Origin: Denitromonas iodatirespirans
Lineage (GTDB): Bacteria; Pseudomonadota; Gammaproteobacteria; Burkholderiales; Rhodocyclaceae
NCBI RefSeq assembly: GCF_018524365.1
Contig: NZ_JAEKFT010000010.1
Span: 62,001 to 126,000 of the forward strand
DNA length: 64,000 nucleotides
Direction of reading: 5' to 3'
Each line of letters opens with the position of its first letter. Position 1 is the stretch's first letter. The notes beneath the pieces were generated by a model, which was not told where the DNA came from, did no database searches, and was given only the letters and a program-made list of their open reading frames with translations. The position numbers and the translations under genes were made by a program. Of the stretch, positions 39,720 to 63,994 are shown in pieces.

Positions 39720-40220
39720 ATGACACTCCTCGACCGCCTCCGCGCCATCAAGCCCACCGCCTGGGCCGTGCTGGCCTTCATCGTCGCCATCATCCTCGGC
39801 ATTCTCTCGGCCATTGAAGCCCATGCCGAACAGGGCTTCCGCGTCGCGCTCGGGCGCACCGTCGTCAATTCCTCGGCCACCTTCGGCGAGTTCGGCTACG
39901 AATTCCCCTCCGGCTGGGAACTCACCGGCACCGCCATGGGCGCCACCGACACCAAGCGCGGCCAGCAGGGCGAGGTACAAGCCCTGTCCTTCAGCCGCCT
40001 CGTACGGCCCGACTGGCACCTGGCCGGCGCCAACGTCTACCTGCGACTCGGCGTCGCCTACGTCGATGGTGCCGAGCTGATCGGCGACACCAACTTCCGC
40101 CTCGGGATCGGCCTCGAGTGGCAGCGCGCGCTGCAGATCGAGTATGTGCACTGGTCGTCCGCCGGCATACACCAGCCCAACACCGGCATCGACGGAGTGC
40201 AACTGCGCTTTATCTACTGA
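39720..40220 (+). CDS. PagL-like lipid A 3-O-deacylase (outer-membrane, phage-encoded)
   Basis: 166 residues. Residues 1-37 are a signal sequence with a long hydrophobic segment and cleavage at AHA-EQ. The rest is a small beta-barrel ending in LRFIY with a terminal aromatic residue. The C-terminal motif HWSSAGIHQPNTGID matches the active site of PagL: His144, Ser146 and Asp158 sit at the exact spacing of the His-x-Ser ... Glu triad (Glu replaced by Asp, the oxyanion Asn by Ser). PagL removes the 3-O acyl chain of lipid A. Its place in the tail-fibre region suggests surface modification in the lysogen. Activity is unproven because of the two substitutions. Confidence 0.72.
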   Translation: MTLLDRLRAIKPTAWAVLAFIVAIILGILSAIEAHAEQGFRVALGRTVVNSSATFGEFGYEFPSGWELTGTAMGATDTKRGQQGEVQALSFSRLVRPDWHLAGANVYLRLGVAYVDGAELIGDTNFRLGIGLEWQRALQIEYVHWSSAGIHQPNTGIDGVQLRFIY

Positions 40221-41532: not shown

Positions 41533-42036
41533 ATGCTCCCCCGCAAACTGAAAAACTTCGCCTGGTTCGCCGATGGTGTCAGCTACGTCGGCCAGGCCTC
41601 CGAAATCACCCTGCCCAGCCTCTCGCGCAAGACCGAAGAGATGCGCAACGGCGGCATGAACGCCCCCATCGACAGCGACATGGGCATGGAAGGCATGACC
41701 ATGGAGGTCACCACCGGCCTGGCGCGCGAGCTCTTCACCGGCTTCGGGCACCCCAAGGCCGACGGCGTGCTGTGGCGCTTCACCGGTGCCTACCAGGAAA
41801 GCACCTCCGGCGCTGTCACCGCCGTCGAGATCGTTGCCCGTGGCCGTTACAAGGAAATCAACATGGGCAACGCCAAGGCCGGCGAAGACGCGCCCATCAA
41901 GCTGTCCATGTCGCTCGCCTACTACAAGCTCACCATCGACAACGAGGTGGTCGTCGAAGTCGACCCGATCAACTTCGTCGAAGTCATCAACGGCGAAGAC
42001 CGCCTGGCGGCCCAGAAAGCCGCGCTCGGCATCTGA
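41533..42036 (+). CDS. FII: Major tail tube protein (P2 gpFII family)
   Basis: 167 residues (P2 172). MLPRKLKNFAWFADGVSYVGQASEITLPSLSRKTEEMRNGGM is a typical gpFII start. Forms the inner tube. Confidence 0.96.
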   Translation: MLPRKLKNFAWFADGVSYVGQASEITLPSLSRKTEEMRNGGMNAPIDSDMGMEGMTMEVTTGLARELFTGFGHPKADGVLWRFTGAYQESTSGAVTAVEIVARGRYKEINMGNAKAGEDAPIKLSMSLAYYKLTIDNEVVVEVDPINFVEVINGEDRLAAQKAALGI

Positions 42037-42056: not shown

Positions 42057-43028
42057 ATGAGCACCTCGCGCGAACGTACCGGGCTCGAGCCCCAGGACCT
42101 CACGAACTGGAAGACCGAGCAGAAAACCGACATGGGCTTCGTCGCGGGTAAGAAGTCGAGCACCTCCGTTACCCTTCCGTCACCCCCTCACCAGGTCGCA
42201 GATCAACTCGAGCAGCTCTATGCCAAGCGCACCCTCACCGGGGAGATTGAAATTTTCGGGCCGGGCGGCGAGAAAATCCCGCTCGGCGGAAGCTACGGTG
42301 ATTTGTACCTGGATCGCGTCATCAGCGGTCTAGCGCTCCCGCCGAGCGGCGGACTTGCAAACGTCGTCGGTCCGGGTGTCGCGTATGTCAACGGTGCTCG
42401 TGTCGCGTCGGTCGGGGCGAGCATCACGCTATCGGCGAACTCAGACAACTACATCGACTTTACATCTTCAGGCGCGTTTGTCGTGTCGCCTGTCGCCGCC
42501 GCCGCTGCGGCGCCTTCGGTCGCGTCCGACAGCATCCGACTCGGCTACGTCACCACCAACGCGACGACCGTCACAGCCCGCGTGACTGCTGCGCTCGACA
42601 GCCTCGGCAACTGGATGGGCAATACCATGCAAATGGACGCCTGCCAGCTACGGCGGGCAAATAACGCCAGCCTTGGCGGGACTGTCGTCAGTCTGTCATT
42701 CCCGGCCGGGAGCGTGCTGCTCGACAACGCGCACATGTACGACTCGACGCTTCCGACACGCATCACGATCCAGCGGGCCGGGCTGTACAAGGTCAGCTAT
42801 TCGGCGGTGCTCGGCAACGGCGCGATTGATTCTGTCCGGCTGCGCCTCAACGGTGCAACTGACACCCGATTCCCGACGCTCTTTACTCCGGCCGGCCTGC
42901 TGACGCCGCAGTCTGCATGGGAGGTCTATCTTGCGGTCGGAGACTACATCGAGTGCCAGATCACGCCCAATACGACGACGCAGCCCTACGCGTATTACAC
43001 CTATTTCTCAGCCGTGAGGATTGGCTGA
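42057..43028 (+). CDS. Tail fibre/spike-like protein with C-terminal C1q/TNF-like domain
   Basis: 323 residues from the ATG at 42057 (CTGGAG upstream). The N-terminus (LTNWKTEQKTDMGFVAGKK) is short and charged. A Gly/Ala-rich beta region follows (about 75-170), then a C1q-type jelly roll (MYDSTLPTRITIQRAGLYKVSYSAVLGNG ... LRLNGATDTRFP ... VGDYIECQITPNTTT), a common trimeric receptor-binding head. It lies where P2 has only a short gap between FII and E. Third codon positions here are visibly less GC-rich than in neighbours, suggesting separate acquisition. Confidence 0.72.
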   Translation: MSTSRERTGLEPQDLTNWKTEQKTDMGFVAGKKSSTSVTLPSPPHQVADQLEQLYAKRTLTGEIEIFGPGGEKIPLGGSYGDLYLDRVISGLALPPSGGLANVVGPGVAYVNGARVASVGASITLSANSDNYIDFTSSGAFVVSPVAAAAAAPSVASDSIRLGYVTTNATTVTARVTAALDSLGNWMGNTMQMDACQLRRANNASLGGTVVSLSFPAGSVLLDNAHMYDSTLPTRITIQRAGLYKVSYSAVLGNGAIDSVRLRLNGATDTRFPTLFTPAGLLTPQSAWEVYLAVGDYIECQITPNTTTQPYAYYTYFSAVRIG

Positions 43029-43978
43029 TGGCAAAGCTGCTCATGCCTGAGCACATCAAACTGATCGGCACGAACCTATGCAGCGACGTTACCTATAGCG
43101 GCGTGGGTGAGGCCGGATGGCGGTTGATGTGGGGCGCGAATTGGGATTGGGACGGATGGGTCAAACCACAGATTGACCTGATGATCGGCAACGGCGTCGG
43201 ATGCAATGCGGTACGAGTACAAGGCGCGGCATATGCTGTGCAGAACGGCACGATTGCAATGTCCGACTACCTCGCGCGCTGGTCACAGGTCATCGAATAC
43301 TGTCGCGACCGTGGCGTCTATGTGTATCCATGCGGATGCACGATTGATCTGGATACGAATTTCACGCTGCCCATCGCAACCATCGGGGCTGTGTTTGCCG
43401 AGATTTTCCGGCATCACCAGCAGTACGACAACGTGATTGGCATCGACATCATCCAAGAGACGACGAACACCGACACGGACGGATGGACGGCCATGAAGCC
43501 GCGCATGGCTTCGCTGATCGCTGACATCAAGTCTCGCGGGGTAACACTGCCGCTGACGTTCTCGTCGTCTGAGTTTCTGGATTCCGGGTATCCGCGCCTG
43601 CTCGAAGTCGCGCACTTGTTTGACTACATCGACCTGCACCCGTACTACCGCGCGGCGAACATCTACGACCTCGATTCACTGCTCGCAGCCTACCCTGACA
43701 AAGACATCATCATGGCTGAGTCGGGGGCCGAAGTGAGCTGGACGACGCGCGACAACCAACTCACGCAGATTCGCCGCATGCTCGATCTTGCGCGCATTGG
43801 ACATCCGCGCATGCGCGGGCTGTTTGTCTGGTCCTCGACCGATCCGGCCGACCCCAACATTCTGGCCGGCAAAGCGTGGGGGCAATACGATTGGGACCAC
43901 ATCCCGCGCCATGACCGGCTGAACTTGATCCGGCGCTATACGGGTGGCAGCGTGTCACGTGCCAACCGCGTGCGTTAA
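43028..43978 (+). CDS. GH-A clan glycoside hydrolase-like protein (cellulase/GH5-like), possible tail depolymerase
   Basis: 316 residues, overlapping the C1q-like gene by one base. A TIM-barrel GH-A pattern is visible: Arg63 in NAVRVQG after strand 3, Glu144 in IDIIQET (acid/base, usually Asn-Glu, here Gln-Glu), His204-x-Tyr206 in DLHPYYR and Glu231 in IIMAESGAE (nucleophile). No signal peptide, so export with the virion is likely. Codon use is less GC-biased than in tail genes. It may cut a capsule or exopolysaccharide on the host surface. A non-hydrolytic binding role is possible because of the Gln before the acid. Confidence 0.68.
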   Translation: MAKLLMPEHIKLIGTNLCSDVTYSGVGEAGWRLMWGANWDWDGWVKPQIDLMIGNGVGCNAVRVQGAAYAVQNGTIAMSDYLARWSQVIEYCRDRGVYVYPCGCTIDLDTNFTLPIATIGAVFAEIFRHHQQYDNVIGIDIIQETTNTDTDGWTAMKPRMASLIADIKSRGVTLPLTFSSSEFLDSGYPRLLEVAHLFDYIDLHPYYRAANIYDLDSLLAAYPDKDIIMAESGAEVSWTTRDNQLTQIRRMLDLARIGHPRMRGLFVWSSTDPADPNILAGKAWGQYDWDHIPRHDRLNLIRRYTGGSVSRANRVR

Positions 43979-44010
43979 TTTCTAATCCCCTCAGCACGTG
44001 GCGACCGCGG

Positions 44011-44922
44011 ATGTCCCGTCTTCTCGCAGCAACACTGGGCAGGCTGGCTCCGCGGTACCGCACCCTGAATCAGTGGGCAGAGGTCTATAAACAGATCCTC
44101 GCCGCCCGCCCCATCAGCGACAAGACAAGGGCGAACCGGCGCTGCGCACAGGCGAGGGTGTTTTCCGAGTTCGGTGATCGCACGATCTCATCCATTCGCC
44201 CGCATGAAGTCGGCGCCATGATCCTCCGCCTGCATGCGCGCTACCCGCAGGCCGCCAAGCGAACGCTGTTCGAGGCGCGCGATATCTTCGACGAAGCGAT
44301 CCACTACGGGTGGCTCGACCGCAACCCGGCCGGACCAATCAAAGCGCCCAGGGTGCGCGTTCGCCGGCGCCGACTGTCGCTTGATCAATGGCAGCAGATC
44401 CATGGCTACGCCGCTGCGAATTTGCCCCCGTGGGTATCTCGAATGATGGTGCTGGCACTGGTGACAGGGCAGCGCAGGTCAGACCTGGTGGCCATGCGCT
44501 TTGATCACATCTGGGATGGGCGTCTGCATGTCGAGCAGGTGAAAACCGGCACACGCATCGCCCTGCCGCTACAGCTGCGCCTGGATGCAATCGGCGTCTC
44601 GCTGGAAGACGCCGTGGATGACTGCCGGGCCTATGCCGCTGGCGATGGTCACCTGCTGCGCAAGCACAACGGCCGCCCGCCCGGCCTGGCATCGCTTTCG
44701 TCGCGGTTCGAAGAATCGCGCGAGGCAGTCATGCAGCATCATGACGACGGGCTCCCCCCGTCCCTGCATGAATGCCGCTCACTGGCAGAGCGCCTGTACC
44801 GCGCGCAGGGCATCGACACCCGGATCCTGCTCGGCCACAAGCATCAATCCATGACCGACCTCTATCACGACGATCGCGGCCTCACCGCCGCCAGCTGGCA
44901 GCTTGTGCATCTGCCAAACTGA
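44011..44922 (+). CDS. Tyrosine recombinase (phage integrase family) inside the tail gene cluster
   Basis: 303 residues. SAM-like N-terminal core-binding domain (LNQWAEVYKQILAARPIS ... IRPHEVGAMILRLH) and a catalytic domain with all residues: Arg155 (VTGQRRSD), Lys178 (VKTGT), His253 and Arg256 (HECRS), His276 (LLGHK) and Tyr285 (MTDLYHDD). It lacks the arm-binding domain of lambda-type integrases, which are about 350 residues. A recombinase within a tail operon is not part of P2 and could act on the adjacent fibre cassette or be a leftover of its acquisition. Confidence 0.88.
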   Translation: MSRLLAATLGRLAPRYRTLNQWAEVYKQILAARPISDKTRANRRCAQARVFSEFGDRTISSIRPHEVGAMILRLHARYPQAAKRTLFEARDIFDEAIHYGWLDRNPAGPIKAPRVRVRRRRLSLDQWQQIHGYAAANLPPWVSRMMVLALVTGQRRSDLVAMRFDHIWDGRLHVEQVKTGTRIALPLQLRLDAIGVSLEDAVDDCRAYAAGDGHLLRKHNGRPPGLASLSSRFEESREAVMQHHDDGLPPSLHECRSLAERLYRAQGIDTRILLGHKHQSMTDLYHDDRGLTAASWQLVHLPN

Positions 44923-45020: not shown

Positions 45021-45341
45021 GTGAAGACCATCACCCTCGAAAAGCCCATCGTCCGCGGCAAGGACGACAAGATCTCCGAGATCACCGAAATCGCCCTGCG
45101 CAAGCCGGCCTCCGGCGAGCTGCGCGGCATCGTCCTGTCCGATCTGCTCAAGATGCATGCCGACGCCACCATGGCCGTGCTGCCGCGCATCTGCGAGCCA
45201 AAGCTCACCCCGCCCGAGGTGGCCGCAATGGACCCGGCCGACCTCTTCGCCTGCGCCGTGGAGATCTCCAATTTTTTGCTACCGACGTCGACGCAGCCGG
45301 CAGATGCATCGACGCAGAACCCGGAATCACCCGCCGAGTAG
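45021..45341 (+). CDS. E: Tail protein E (P2 gpE family)
   Basis: 106 residues from GTG 45021, AAAGGAG upstream. ITLEKPIVRGKDDKISEITEIALRKPASGELRGI is the gpE signature. It is the short product of an overlapping pair and probably a tape-measure chaperone, by analogy with lambda gpG. Confidence 0.92.
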   Translation: MKTITLEKPIVRGKDDKISEITEIALRKPASGELRGIVLSDLLKMHADATMAVLPRICEPKLTPPEVAAMDPADLFACAVEISNFLLPTSTQPADASTQNPESPAE

Positions 45342-45472
45342 AAGACGCCATGGCCGACATCGCCACCGTCTTCCACTGGCCGCCAAGCGAGATGGACCAC
45401 ATGCCGCTGGGCGAACTGCTCGCCTGGCGCCACCGCGCCTGGGAGCGCAACCACGTGGAGGATGAGGACTGA
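45021..45472 (+). CDS. E': Extended tail protein E+E' (by -1 frameshift)
   Basis: The ribosome can shift at T-TTT-TTG (45272-45278) into the -1 frame, which stays open to 45472. The result has about 150 residues (P2 E+E' has 142). The E' part ends IATVFHWPPSEMDHMPLGELLAWRHRAWERNHVEDED, a conserved sequence that has no good start of its own. Its stop overlaps the T start. Confidence 0.85.
45272..45278 (+). promoter_or_regulatory. Programmed -1 frameshift site T TTT TTG
   Basis: In the E frame the codons are AAT TTT TTG; the heptamer is the one used in the P2 E/E' overlap. The frame geometry fits a -1 slip exactly. Confidence 0.85.
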
Positions 45473-47661
45473 TGGCATCGGCCACCGAATCGCTCAAGCT
45501 GCAGGTCCTGTTCGACGCTATCGACAAGCTCTCCGGCCCGCTGCGCGGCATGCGCGGCGGCACCGACCGCCTGTCGCGCGCGCTCAAGGCATCGCGCGAC
45601 GAACTCAAGGGCTTCGAAGCCCAGCAGCGCAAGCTGGACGTCCTCGACAAGACCACCCGCGATCTTGCGGAGAACTCCCGCGCGCTCGACACCAACCGCG
45701 GCAAGCTGCGCGAACTGCGCGACGCCCTCGTCGCAGCCGAGAACCCGTCCAAGAACCTGCGCGAGCAGTACAAGGCCCAGCTGCGCGAGATTCGCCAGCT
45801 TGAACGCCGCAATGAAACCCTCACCCGCAGCCAGGCCGACGTGCGCCGCGAGCTGGAGCGCGCCGGCGTGCCGCTCAACCAGCTCACTCAGCACCAGGCG
45901 CGCCTGCGCAGCCAGATGGCCCGCGCCAACACCGCCATCGACCAGCAAGCCGCGCGGCTCGAAAAGCTGCGCACCGCCCAGCGCAGCTACGACCGCATCA
46001 TGGCCGTGCGCGGCCAGATCGCCGGCACCGGCGCCGGCATGGTCGCCGGTGGTGCTGCCATGGGCGCCCCGGTGCTCGCCGCCATCCGCAACTTCGCCAG
46101 CTTTGAAGACGCCATGCTCGGCGTCGCCCGCCAGGTGCAAGGCGCACGCGACGCCAACGGCCAGCTCACCGCCACCTACTACGAACTGGCCGACGCCATC
46201 CAGGCGCTTTCCACCGACGCCCGCATCGGCCTGGCCACCAACGATGTCGCCGCGCTCATCGAGGCCGGCGCCCGCATGGGCATCGAGGGCAAGGACAACC
46301 TGCTCGCCTTCGCCCGCTCAGCCGCCTACAGCGCCGTAGCATTCGACGCCATGGCCGGCGACATCGGCGAATCCATGGCCCGCATCGCTGGCCTGTACAA
46401 GATCCCCATCGCCAACATCGAGCAGCTCGGCGACACCATCAACTGGCTCGACGACCAAGCGCAGTCCAAGGGCGCCGACATCATCGAGGTCATGAGCCGC
46501 ATCGCCGGTATGAGCCAAACGGTGGGCATGAGCTTCAAGGACGCCGCCGCCCTCGGCAGCACCTTCCTCAGCCTCGGCGCCAGCGCCGAAGTGGCCGCCA
46601 CCGCCTCCAACGCGCTCATCCGCGAGCTGTCCATCGCCGCCAACCAGCCCAATCGATTCCAGGCAGCGCTGCAGTCCATCGGCCTGTCGCCCGACGCCGT
46701 GCAGGCCGGCATGATCAAGGACAGCACCGGCACCATCATGCAGGTGCTCGAAGCCATCAAGGCACTACCCAAGGAACAGCAGCTCTCGGCCACCGTCGGC
46801 CTGTTCGGGAAGGAATACGGCGACGACGTCGCCAAGCTCGCCGAAAACATGGAGGAGTACCGGCGCCAGCTCAAGGTGGCCAACGACGAATCCGCCCGCG
46901 GCTCGCAGCTGCGCGAGGCTGAAGCCCGCGCAAACTCCCTCAACGCCCGCTGGCAAGCCGCCGTCAACCGGCTCTACAACGTCAGCGCCAACGCCGCCGC
47001 CACGCTCAAGGGCAGCATCGTCGGCCTCATCGAAATCGCCGCCGACTGGCTCGACGGGCTCAACGGCTGGATCCAGGCAAATCCGGCGCTGGTCGCCGGC
47101 ATCATGAAGGCCGTGGCCGTGGTCGCCGCGCTGGTGACCGGGTTCGGGGCGCTGGCCCTCGGCCTGGCCGCCGTTCTAGGGCCAATGGCAATCGTCAAGG
47201 TGTCTGTCGCCGTTCTTGGTCCGCTGTTCGCCGGTCTCGCTGGCCCCATCGGCATCGCCGTAGCCGCCATCGCCGGCATCGGCGCCGCTGCCTACGCCGT
47301 CTACGACAACTGGGACCGCATCAAACAGGCCTTCGTCGACGTTTTCAAGTTCATCGGCGACGGCATCAAGCGCTACTTCACCGACAAACTGCAGTGGGCG
47401 CTCGACAAGCTCGACGCCGTCAAACGCTTCGCCGGCAACGCCGTGGATTGGGCCTTCGGCGACGACGAGTCCGCCGCCCCCACCAAGCCCCTGCGCACCC
47501 GCTACGCCAGCGGCAACATCACCACCAACAACCATGTAGCCGTCACCGCCGCGCCCGGCCAGAGCGCCGAAGAAGTCGGCAAGGAAGTCACCCGCCAGCT
47601 CGACGAGCGCGACCGCCGGCAAGGCCGCGCGCGGCGCAGCCGCTATGGAGATATCGACTGA
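45472..47661 (+). CDS. T: Tail tape-measure protein (P2 gpT family)
   Basis: 729 residues (P2 815). N-terminal coiled coil (residues about 10-165), TP901-type core (FEDAMLGVARQVQGARD ... GESMARIAGLYKIPIANIEQLGDTINWLDDQ), hydrophobic helices at about 540-615 and a charged tail. The length sets tail length, so the tail should be slightly shorter than that of P2. Confidence 0.94.
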   Translation: MASATESLKLQVLFDAIDKLSGPLRGMRGGTDRLSRALKASRDELKGFEAQQRKLDVLDKTTRDLAENSRALDTNRGKLRELRDALVAAENPSKNLREQYKAQLREIRQLERRNETLTRSQADVRRELERAGVPLNQLTQHQARLRSQMARANTAIDQQAARLEKLRTAQRSYDRIMAVRGQIAGTGAGMVAGGAAMGAPVLAAIRNFASFEDAMLGVARQVQGARDANGQLTATYYELADAIQALSTDARIGLATNDVAALIEAGARMGIEGKDNLLAFARSAAYSAVAFDAMAGDIGESMARIAGLYKIPIANIEQLGDTINWLDDQAQSKGADIIEVMSRIAGMSQTVGMSFKDAAALGSTFLSLGASAEVAATASNALIRELSIAANQPNRFQAALQSIGLSPDAVQAGMIKDSTGTIMQVLEAIKALPKEQQLSATVGLFGKEYGDDVAKLAENMEEYRRQLKVANDESARGSQLREAEARANSLNARWQAAVNRLYNVSANAAATLKGSIVGLIEIAADWLDGLNGWIQANPALVAGIMKAVAVVAALVTGFGALALGLAAVLGPMAIVKVSVAVLGPLFAGLAGPIGIAVAAIAGIGAAAYAVYDNWDRIKQAFVDVFKFIGDGIKRYFTDKLQWALDKLDAVKRFAGNAVDWAFGDDESAAPTKPLRTRYASGNITTNNHVAVTAAPGQSAEEVGKEVTRQLDERDRRQGRARRSRYGDID

Positions 47662-62133: not shown

Positions 62134-62307
62134 ATGAACGATCACGACCGCCGCGCCGCCCGCTCCGACCTCATCCGCTGGCTTGCCGAGCAGCTGGTGG
62201 ACGACGCGCTTGCAGAGCGGCGGCTGGATACACAGAATCAAGCACATGACAAACGCAGCCATCTACGCCCGGTTCTCAACCGACCGGCAGAACGATCGAT
62301 CCCTTGA
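62134..62307 (+). CDS. Small hypothetical protein overlapping the integrase start
   Basis: 57 residues with two acidic-basic helices at the start (DRRAARSDLIRWLAEQLVDDALAERRLD). The end overlaps the integrase gene by 62 bases, so translation may be coupled. Confidence 0.55.
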   Translation: MNDHDRRAARSDLIRWLAEQLVDDALAERRLDTQNQAHDKRSHLRPVLNRPAERSIP

Positions 62308-63826
62308 CGATCAGGCGCGGGTCGCCCAGGCCCGCGCCGACCTGCTCGACCTCACCGTTACCACCATCCACCGCGACGATGCCGTATCTGGATCGACGCC
62401 GGTGGCCGCCCGCCCGGGCGGCGCGCGTCTGCTGGCCGATGCCATGGCCGGGCGCTTCGAGGTGCTGATCATGGAGGGGCTGGATCGCCTCTCGCGCGAC
62501 CAGGTGGAACAGGAACGCACCGTGCGCCGGTTGGAGCACCGAGGCATCCGCATTATCGGCGTGGCCGACGGCTACGACTCGGAGGCGGCCGGGCGCAAGA
62601 TCCACCGCACCATGCGCGGGCTGATCAACGAAATCTACCTGGACGACCTGCGGGAGAAGACGCACCGCGGCCTCGCTGGCCAGCTCGCGCGCGGCGGCCA
62701 CGCCGGCGGGCGGGCCTACGGCTACCGCAGCGTGCGCGATGGCGACATCAGCCGCCTCGAGGTGGTGCCCGAGCAAGCCGAGGTGATCCGCTGGATCTAC
62801 ACCCGCTATGCCGAGGGCTGGAGCTGCCAGCGCGTGGCGGCCGATCTGAACGCGCGCGGCGTGAAAAGCGGCTTCGGCGGCACCTGGGCGGTGTCGGCGC
62901 TGTATGGCTCGCCGAACAAGGGCAGCGGCGTGCTCAACAACGAGCTCTACATCGGACGGCTGATCTGGAACCGCAGCCAGTACGTGAAAGACCCGGACAC
63001 CGGCAAGCGGACGCGCATCGACCGCCCGCGCGACGAGTGGCACATCGAGGAGCGCCCGGAGCTTCAAATCGTGTCGCACTCGCTGTGGCTGGCCGTGCGC
63101 GAGCGCATGGCGCGTCCGACGCGTCAGGGCGGCAACGCCGGCAAGGGCGCCCGACCGCGATCGCTGTTTGGCGGACTGCTCAAGTGCGGGATCTGCGGCG
63201 GCGCCGTGGTGGCCACCAGCGGGCGTCACTACGGCTGCGCCGCCAGAAAGGACCGCGGCCCGGCCGTGTGCGCCGGCGTGCAGGCCAACCGCCAGAAGGT
63301 CGACCAGCGCCTGCTCTACGCCATCCGCGAGGAACTGCTGAGCCCGTCCGCCATCGCCGAGCTGCAGGAAACGGTAAAAGAAGTGCTCGCCGCCCGCCGG
63401 CGCGAGGCGGCCGAACTGGCCCAGGCCGCCCGGGCCCGCATCGCCGAGCTGGATAGCGAGATTGCCCGCCTGGTGGATGCCGTGGCCACGGTGGGGATAT
63501 CCCCCGCCCTGACGGCCCGCCTGCAGCAGGCAGAGGCCGAGCGTGAGCGCGTGACAGCAGAGCAGGATTCCAACGTGCCCGGCGGCGCCGTGATCGACGC
63601 GCTGCAGCGCTACCGCAAGCTGCTGGCCGACCTCGAACAGTCCCTGAGCACAGACACCGACCGCGCCCGCGAGATCCTGCGCCGCATGATCGCCCCGGCC
63701 GAGATGGTCGCGCGCGAAGGGCAAGTGTTCGTGGAAATAGAGACAGGCCGAGCAGCAATCGCTGTCGGCCTGTCTCTGGGATTGGTTGCGGGGGCAGGAC
63801 TTGAACCTGCGACCTTCGGGTTATGA
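62246..63826 (+). CDS. int: Large serine recombinase (prophage integrase)
   Basis: 526 residues from the ATG at 62246, where the catalytic domain begins (AAIYARFSTDRQ, nucleophile Ser11). Resolvase domain about 4-150 (LIMEGLDRLSRDQ), recombinase domain about 160-265 (GGRAYGYRSV ... VPEQAEVIRWIYTRYAEG), zinc ribbon about 310-340 (CGICGGAVVATSGRHYGCAA), coiled coil and C-terminal part. The last 14 codons lie in the attachment core and the antisense of the tRNA gene (ending GLEPATFGL). Adjacent to attR, so it is the probable integrase. Confidence 0.93.
   Translation: MTNAAIYARFSTDRQNDRSLDDQARVAQARADLLDLTVTTIHRDDAVSGSTPVAARPGGARLLADAMAGRFEVLIMEGLDRLSRDQVEQERTVRRLEHRGIRIIGVADGYDSEAAGRKIHRTMRGLINEIYLDDLREKTHRGLAGQLARGGHAGGRAYGYRSVRDGDISRLEVVPEQAEVIRWIYTRYAEGWSCQRVAADLNARGVKSGFGGTWAVSALYGSPNKGSGVLNNELYIGRLIWNRSQYVKDPDTGKRTRIDRPRDEWHIEERPELQIVSHSLWLAVRERMARPTRQGGNAGKGARPRSLFGGLLKCGICGGAVVATSGRHYGCAARKDRGPAVCAGVQANRQKVDQRLLYAIREELLSPSAIAELQETVKEVLAARRREAAELAQAARARIAELDSEIARLVDAVATVGISPALTARLQQAEAERERVTAEQDSNVPGGAVIDALQRYRKLLADLEQSLSTDTDRAREILRRMIAPAEMVAREGQVFVEIETGRAAIAVGLSLGLVAGAGLEPATFGL
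63782..63796. repeat. Right attachment site core (attR)
   Basis: TTGGTTGCGGGGGCA, identical to 24127-24141. It is the reverse complement of the acceptor end of tRNA-fMet with CCA plus one base. Confidence 0.85.
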
Positions 63827-63858
63827 GCCCGACGAGCTGCCAACTGCTCCACCCCGCG
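63783..63858 (-). tRNA. tRNA-fMet (CAT), initiator
   Basis: 76 bases with encoded CCA. Initiator hallmarks: unpaired C1-A72 and three G-C pairs in the anticodon stem (GGGCTCATAACCC). The gene is complete because the phage core restores its 3' end. Its original terminator is now at 24088-24119. Confidence 0.95.
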
Positions 63859-63918
63859 TCAGAGAAACGAGACTTTAGACCATTACAGATGTTTCGTCAA
63901 GGATCCAAAGCATAAATC

Positions 63919-63994
63919 TGGTGCCGGTTGCAGGAGTCGAACCCGCGACCTACCGCTTACAAGGCGGTTGCTCTACCAACTGAGCTAAACCGGC
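63919..63994 (-). tRNA. tRNA-Thr (TGT)
   Basis: 76 bases with encoded CCA. Acceptor GCCGGTT / AACCGGC, anticodon arm ACCGC-CTTGTAA-GCGGT with anticodon TGT, T-arm GCGGGTTCGACTCCTGC. Host gene upstream of tRNA-fMet in the same direction. Confidence 0.93.

Follow-up and report, generated by a model that had tools for sequence, protein, structure and literature searches.

The window analyzed here, a stretch of 64,000 nucleotides (nt) of Denitromonas iodatirespirans DNA to whose positions the coordinates refer, carries a P2-like tail operon in which three genes lie between FII and gpE, as judged from the list of open reading frames (ORFs) and from Pfam matches: a fiber gene, a glycosidase-like gene and a tyrosine recombinase gene. 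Sequence exchange in this locus and its counterparts in other phages is very probably bounded by two short DNA sites, here named LEFT and RIGHT, that enclose a cassette made of most of the fiber gene and the gene that follows. As shown by comparison of phage sequences, both sites are conserved and sequence replacement coincides with them in two groups of loci and, at the upstream border, in one further pair. The window recombinase is probably the catalyst of the exchange, and a platform on which receptor-domain cassettes are replaced is likely to be the best explanation of the data as a whole.

Conserved sites at the cassette borders

LEFT (TCACCGGGGnGATTnAAATT) lies within the first gene of the cassette, where it translates as (V/L/F)TGxI. 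In the window it is in frame, reads T-G-E-I-E-I and sets the beginning of the cassette at fiber codon 60. When each locus was left out in turn and scored with a position weight matrix (PWM) built from the others, LEFT ranked first in 18 of 19 loci and seventh in the remaining one, L174. The Gly codon of the site is GGG in 17/18 loci, where the general usage of GGG is 0.143 (P = 6.5e-14), and the Ile codon is ATT in 9/9 against a usage of 0.31 (P = 2.7e-5), where both P values treat the loci as independent. The GGG bias indicates that the DNA of the site is conserved beyond what the protein alone would require.

RIGHT, which is 16–20 nt long with the consensus CTAAyCCCCTCwkCAC, is found between the stop codon of the enzyme gene and the start of the recombinase gene. 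Both sites were first chosen by eye, and the variants of L003 (one extra base) and L171 (an interrupted site) were excluded from the RIGHT set; L099 has no upstream sequence. Under the same leave-one-out procedure RIGHT ranked first in 21/21 loci when each complete locus was scanned on both strands. The distance from the end of RIGHT to the recombinase start is 0–18 nt in 19 of these 21 loci, 13 nt in the window, where RIGHT follows the stop codon of the glycosidase-like gene, and 103 and 106 nt in the two exceptions. A stop codon falls −3 to +10 nt from RIGHT in 18 of 26 loci. A role for RIGHT in controlling the recombinase was rejected, since the site also occurs where there is no recombinase gene. 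Second RIGHT-like copies lie 3–5 nt past the enzyme stop codon in L092 (14.8 bits), L097 (12.5 bits) and L003 (9.9 bits), and one or two small ORFs separate the two copies. RIGHT-like sites at about 515-548 in L091 and about 7940-7975 in L171 are split by a common stretch of ~20 nt.

Sequence replacement between LEFT and RIGHT

The case for exchange comes from 26 loci with both sites, which form 325 pairs; a pair was kept if one of its flanks reached 70% identity. In the 14 pairs that passed, identity is 81–97% before LEFT and 52–57% between the sites, and after RIGHT it returns to 88–94% in nine of them. Shuffled inside sequences gave 48–58% identity (mean 52.7), so that the sequences between the sites must be considered unrelated. 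Close relatives among these other phages conserve the part before LEFT, and it is there, and not among the relatives of the window, that an exact swap of the segment corresponding to the window cassette is seen. Loci were dropped before counting where they repeated others (L001, L012, L113, L138, L142, L145, L238, L239 and L342).

Several pairs bear on the relationship between cassette and recombinase. L353, which has no recombinase, and L100, which has one, share 97.1% identity as far as LEFT and 84.5% past RIGHT or the recombinase; measured directly after RIGHT, with the recombinase intervening, identity is 55%. A similar presence/absence pair, L341 (no recombinase) and L009 (recombinase), is about 75% identical before and 76.5% after. 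In L011/L095, L007/L090 and L094/L098, recombinase homology begins at or within RIGHT, and the upstream genes differ. L097 and L172 have 206 bp in common at 99.5% identity, ending at RIGHT, and the recombinases beyond are 57.8% identical. By this comparison, one near-identical cassette end stands beside two different recombinases; only the cassette end is visible in L172 because its contig begins there.

A cultured phage, P26059A (KY981271, L370), carries two tandem paralogues whose DNA similarity stops within LEFT, with a RIGHT after each. An HNH endonuclease gene (L370 4383-4943) lies between these two anchor–cassette genes, and it is possible that such an endonuclease is a second driver of exchange. 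In the P26059A paper, the phage is described as lytic, HNH genes are mentioned and the word integrase is absent (PMC5964084). An HNH-like gene, read from its translation, also lies inside the cassette of L011, on the opposite strand.

Blind search for LEFT–RIGHT pairs

Additional evidence came from a blind search of IMG/VR with the LEFT pattern AATCCNNTCACCGGGGNGRTT. The pattern retrieved 42 stretches, 40 of them new; sample 3300020045 contributed the most hits. Among the 30 hits with at least 2.1 kb of downstream sequence, 23 have a RIGHT of at least 14 bits within 2.6 kb on the same strand, versus 1 of 68 other intervals of the same contigs. On the minus strand 6 of the 30 intervals score for RIGHT, four of them at one place, 34–37 nt past LEFT. 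In 36 of the 40 new stretches, an ORF of at least 60 amino acids (aa) reads through LEFT in the T-G frame, and three of the four LEFT sites without such an ORF sit at contig ends. Clustering placed the 34 anchors that have 20 residues or more in 16 clusters. Among 20 cassette proteins scanned, 10 match GDSL/SGNH esterases (several under the cut-off), one resembles a deacetylase and one a beta-helix protein (both under the cut-off), and 8 have no match. In 5 of 25 blind-set loci, GATT follows RIGHT at a fixed distance. RIGHT plus GATT would take the AATC-N13-GATT form of LEFT, a symmetry that is only suggestive because the search pattern for LEFT required AATC-N13-GATT and the RIGHT of the window has no GATT.

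Two broader expectations were rejected. The sites do not accompany every extra fiber in the structural slot: among Mu-like tube loci, the 12 that carry other inserts and lack the recombinase (three of them truncated at a contig end, two probably from the same phage) contain no strong LEFT–RIGHT pair, with a best LEFT of 15.1 bits and a best RIGHT of 15.2 bits in different loci, compared with 24–31 and 16–23 bits in three loci with the recombinase. Nor is a 146-aa cassette ORF always site-bearing, since a score of at least 14 bits within 200 nt of its stop codon was found, of 80 loci, only in L097's own record and in L314. This 146-aa protein of unknown function is the cassette of L097 (5684-6121) and has 108 matching stretches in viral contigs. 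In L142-L170, the interval between Mu-like tail tube and chaperone genes is a slot that is empty or holds site-less fibers or, in two cases, a recombinase cassette.

The recombinase and its relatives

The sequence-only reading of this DNA had described an intact tyrosine recombinase, and this holds. The window protein matches PF00589 above the cut-off (47.3 bits), and R155, K178, H253, R256, H276 and Y285, the catalytic R-K-H-R-H-Y residues, are unchanged in 20/20 aligned clade members. The clade profile aligns with residues 74–349 of lambda Int, which implies that the clade lacks the arm-binding domain; in the window, the open frame extends just 32 codons above the start. The recombinase profile also matches PHROG integrase families 7244 and 1. 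Relatives with more than 50% identity are in viral contigs and a few bacterial contigs, mostly metagenome-assembled. At strict cut-offs, the clade recombinase is present in 5 of 297 genomes of the family and 1 of 399 of the order, own genome included.

Clade members occupy varied places in the structural operons of unrelated phages: between Mu gp29- and gp30-like genes (L003, L093), between portal and protease (L007), between tail tube and chaperone (L094, L096, L097) and ahead of head–tail connector genes (L091, L100), with neighbor labels partly read by eye from translations. Where there is enough upstream sequence, the upstream neighbor is usually a fiber or enzyme gene. The enzymes are a GDSL/SGNH esterase, polysaccharide deacetylase, rhamnosidase or SASA esterase, and GH5-like in the window; some of these matches are under Pfam cut-offs, two are fused to a phage cement domain, and other neighbors have no Pfam match. 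The proposal that the segment of fiber and enzyme is an exchangeable cassette is supported, and cassettes of this kind occur in these unrelated phages.

The arm-less recombinases of L013 (7946-8916) and L175 (7946-8919) are 94% identical, opposed in direction to the neighboring phage genes and accompanied by neither LEFT nor RIGHT; a small KVYV-type ORF follows the recombinase in L175 and L176. L006, L008 and L080 match only the 3' end of the recombinase gene (residues about 246–303), and L008 has a LEFT-like site as well. Because these three loci carry only its 3' end, the recombinase gene was searched for an internal recombination site; only modest peaks of synonymous conservation, at most 1.31x expectation, were found, and the idea was rejected.

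The locus in the window

The coordinates of the features are collected in Table 1. Within the insert, the ATG of the glycosidase-like gene overlaps the stop codon of the fiber gene, and the gpE-like gene beyond is 33–66% identical to E-like genes of relatives by tblastn.

Table 1. Features of the window that relate to the cassette and its surroundings (PWM scores in bits).
Feature	Position	Strand	Basis
PagL-like lipid A deacylase gene	39720-40220		PF09411, 35.5 bits
FII tail tube gene, left neighbor	41533..42036	+	PF04985 Phage_tube, 190.1 bits
Fiber gene, 323 aa, comprising the anchor and the part encoded by the cassette	42057..43028	+	ORF list
Fiber N-terminal part ahead of LEFT, 59 codons	42057..42234	+	Position relative to LEFT
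Probable exchangeable cassette: rest of fiber gene plus glycosidase-like gene	42235..43981	+	Bounds set by LEFT and RIGHT
LEFT site TCACCGGGGAGATTGAAATT	42235..42254	+	PWM 31.0 bits; leave-one-out rank 1 in 64 kb, both strands
Glycosidase-like gene, 316 aa	43028..43978	+	Weak GH5-like match, low-confidence model
RIGHT site CTAATCCCCTCAGCAC	43982..43997	+	PWM 26.2 bits; leave-one-out rank 1
Tyrosine recombinase gene, arm-less lambda-Int-type, 303 aa	44011..44922	+	PF00589, PF22022, clade profile, spacing
gpE-like tail gene, right neighbor	45021..45341	+	tblastn to relatives
Tape measure gene	45472-47661		PhageMin_Tail match
Serine recombinase domain	about 62255-62698		PF00239, 85.9 bits

An insert of 3 kb between FII and E, unlike the arrangement in P2-like phages, had been proposed from the sequence, and family relatives agree: a search of 297 genomes of the family, own included, gave 16 FII loci in 15 other genomes, and none has a comparable insert. 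The gene after FII is instead E-like or small, with tail genes beyond it; some of these next genes were identified by eye from translations. The exact edge of the insert cannot be fixed against these loci because the nearest FII–E relative is too diverged (57% FII identity). A general repeat search round the three genes gave short, imperfect repeats only and none at the borders; such a search is blind to LEFT and RIGHT because they are too short and unlike each other. Exchange does not take the three genes as one unit. The unit indicated by comparison is smaller, running from fiber codon 60 to before the recombinase, and the recombinase lies outside it. A recombinase is absent at the same place in L353, a near relative of the carrier L100. 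Alternative cassettes at one place, also predicted, do occur in related phages of other groups, but not among the close relatives of the window.

Deviant codon use was correctly noted for the fiber and glycosidase-like genes, with G+C fractions at third codon positions of 0.74–0.80 against 0.87–0.89 for FII, E and the tape measure gene, but it is not restricted to them, as the recombinase (0.75) also departs from its neighbors. The two gene products are harder to classify. Both genes are real, but the C1q-type label for the fiber C-terminus has only a BclA_C match under the cut-off (E 0.0016), and the GH-A label for the second gene only a GH5 Cellulase match, also under the cut-off (E 0.0086). 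Single-sequence structure models were poor, with predicted local distance difference test (pLDDT) scores of 44.1 and 40.5, so that Foldseek results are indicative only; for the glycosidase-like model (pLDDT 44) the best matches were mostly sugar epimerases and a few chitinases, at a query TM-score of at most 0.40. The C1q and GH-A labels are plausible but weak. Neither protein has a clear sequence relative in the PDB; the glycosidase-like protein has no relative in viral contigs (six patterns used), and the fiber protein none in the phage collection.

The PagL-like gene sits between a fiber-assembly-like gene and the tail sheath gene. Two tRNA genes at 63783-63994 lie near the serine recombinase domain and the right end of the window, which is possibly the integration end.

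A model for cassette exchange and its alternatives

In the proposed mechanism, an N-terminal fiber segment, probably the virion anchor, would be fused in frame through LEFT to a cassette encoding the receptor-recognizing or glycan-attacking part. The cassette would end at RIGHT, mostly at or just past a stop codon, and be followed by phage genes or, in the window, by the recombinase. Cassettes would be swapped as whole LEFT–RIGHT units, and such replacement would mean that one anchor can display unrelated enzymes. The arm-less lambda-type recombinase beside RIGHT would cut and join at both sites, acting in its own phage or, conjecturally, in trans for co-infecting phages that bear the sites and lack the recombinase; a circular cassette intermediate may be conjectured as well. 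The outcome would presumably be changed host recognition. The recombinase is the simplest candidate for this role: its position at RIGHT is fixed, its active site is intact, and near relatives differ in whether they carry it at RIGHT. The fullest form of the proposal, a dedicated system in which the arm-less recombinase recognizes LEFT and RIGHT and swaps receptor or glycan-enzyme segments in frame, both in the temperate phage that encodes it and in trans in phages that carry only the sites, is put forward tentatively, with slightly more doubt than belief. If it is true, unrelated phages of the same habitat draw on one common pool of host-recognition cassettes.

A number of observations weigh against this model. 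No recombination has been observed, and no close relative of the window was found in which the cassette differs or the site is empty. Tyrosine recombinases normally need overlap between their sites, and LEFT and RIGHT have few central bases in common, which leaves little for it. The 14 informative pairs stem from groups of five and three loci and one further pair, and so are not independent; four pairs with L329 retain just 64–67% identity after RIGHT. There is no clean site in six clade members (L013, L014/L138, L015, L139, L175 and L176), and no RIGHT of 14 bits in 7 of the 30 blind hits. Of the 40 blind-set records, 30 were tested for the clade recombinase and none has it; a tyrosine recombinase of any kind was found in just 3 of 27, many of the records being fragments.

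These absences (30/30 and 24/27 records, respectively) strengthen a rival explanation in which cassettes are swapped by homologous or annealase-driven (Rad52-like) recombination at short conserved borders and the recombinase is a passenger at RIGHT. Precise trading of host-recognition domains is usually ascribed to illegitimate or relaxed homologous recombination, and exact swaps are found among the recombinase-less blind-set records. We nevertheless consider this explanation unlikely. The borders are common to 16 anchor clusters and conserved at the codon level, sites of 16–20 nt are short for annealases, and a passenger would not need RIGHT so close to its start in 19/21 loci. It does draw on precedent, in that one report names relaxed homologous recombination as the main maker of lambdoid mosaics (PMC3945230). 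Were it right, the system would be a variant of ordinary phage mosaicism. A recombinase that is itself a mobile gene, inserting at RIGHT and using the site without swapping LEFT–RIGHT cassettes, would account for the presence and absence of the gene at the same place in L353 versus L100 and L341 versus L009, and for homology of related recombinases that begins at RIGHT and ends near the gene end. However, no RIGHT-like site lies past the recombinase in the 21 downstream stretches examined, and an enzyme inserting at RIGHT would probably also act on RIGHT-ended cassettes, which makes this a distinctly improbable account.

The profile match to lambda Int and the PHROG integrase families would suit an ordinary phage integrase displaced into the tail operon. 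Such an origin is very hard to reconcile with the missing arm-binding domain and with a gene position that differs among phages and in the window falls between FII and E. Other integration enzymes are present, as the sequence-only reading had argued from the serine recombinase of the window: a second tyrosine integrase occurs in 6 of 12 carrier records and a Mu-type transposase match in 2 of 12, one under the curated cut-off. In the window the recombinase is not the sole integration enzyme and, with its gene between FII and E, is probably not encoded at the attachment site. Inversion had also been considered from the sequence. Nothing beyond the adjacency of recombinase and fiber genes speaks for an inversion switch like that of Mu or P1, and it is scarcely credible given that the window has, at 14 bits or more, one LEFT, one RIGHT and no inverted copy of either, with no strong inverted repeats and no second set of alternative ends seen. 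The presence of two conserved borders common to unrelated phages and of a candidate enzyme beside one of them makes the question of how phages trade these domains directly testable. With LEFT and RIGHT, metagenomes can also be searched by a simple DNA pattern for new enzymes that recognize receptors or act on glycans.

Relationship to known systems

There are parallels with integrons, which include integrase-less attC clusters in virulent phages: units end in a short recombination site, and a tyrosine recombinase stands beside the site in some genomes while enzyme-less orphan units occur in others (PMC9892861). The units described here differ in being in-frame C-terminal parts of proteins instead of whole genes, and they are bounded by two unlike sites, with LEFT in coding sequence and RIGHT (16–20 nt) at the stop codon; the recombinase is downstream and co-directional. 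Four clade members, including that of the window, have no match to the NCBIfam integron-integrase model at E 0.01, and integron-like arrays are hinted at only by the second RIGHT-like copies of the three loci named above. Lambda integrase has the same core-binding and catalytic domains and catalytic residues, but the present recombinase lacks the arm-binding domain and its gene lies in a tail operon. An ordinary P2-like integrase is described in another study (PMC8986868).

The R64 shufflon with Rci, and invertible phage fibers, work by inversion within one genome between inverted repeats. They are alike in diversifying the C-terminus of an adhesin by site-specific recombination. They differ in that the sites here are direct and exchange would take place between genomes; in the window there are no inverted site copies round alternative ends. 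No diversity-generating retroelement was noticed in the ORFs read, although no dedicated search was made. The modular receptor-binding proteins of Klebsiella phages similarly join an N-terminal structural module to a C-terminal enzyme module, and the opening of the abstract describing them mentions neither conserved DNA sites at the junction nor a linked recombinase (PMC8262889). Topic searches of the open PubMed Central literature, and one for phage P26059A, gave no description of sites of the LEFT/RIGHT type, which is weak evidence of novelty. The system does not show the features, among those tested, that define integrons and shufflons, and none of the papers found describes it. That many unrelated phages carry interchangeable segments for attacking sugars or recognizing receptors within the same two short marks, and that in the window a recombinase gene lies next to one mark, suggests that phages have a natural plug-and-play means of altering their grip on hosts.

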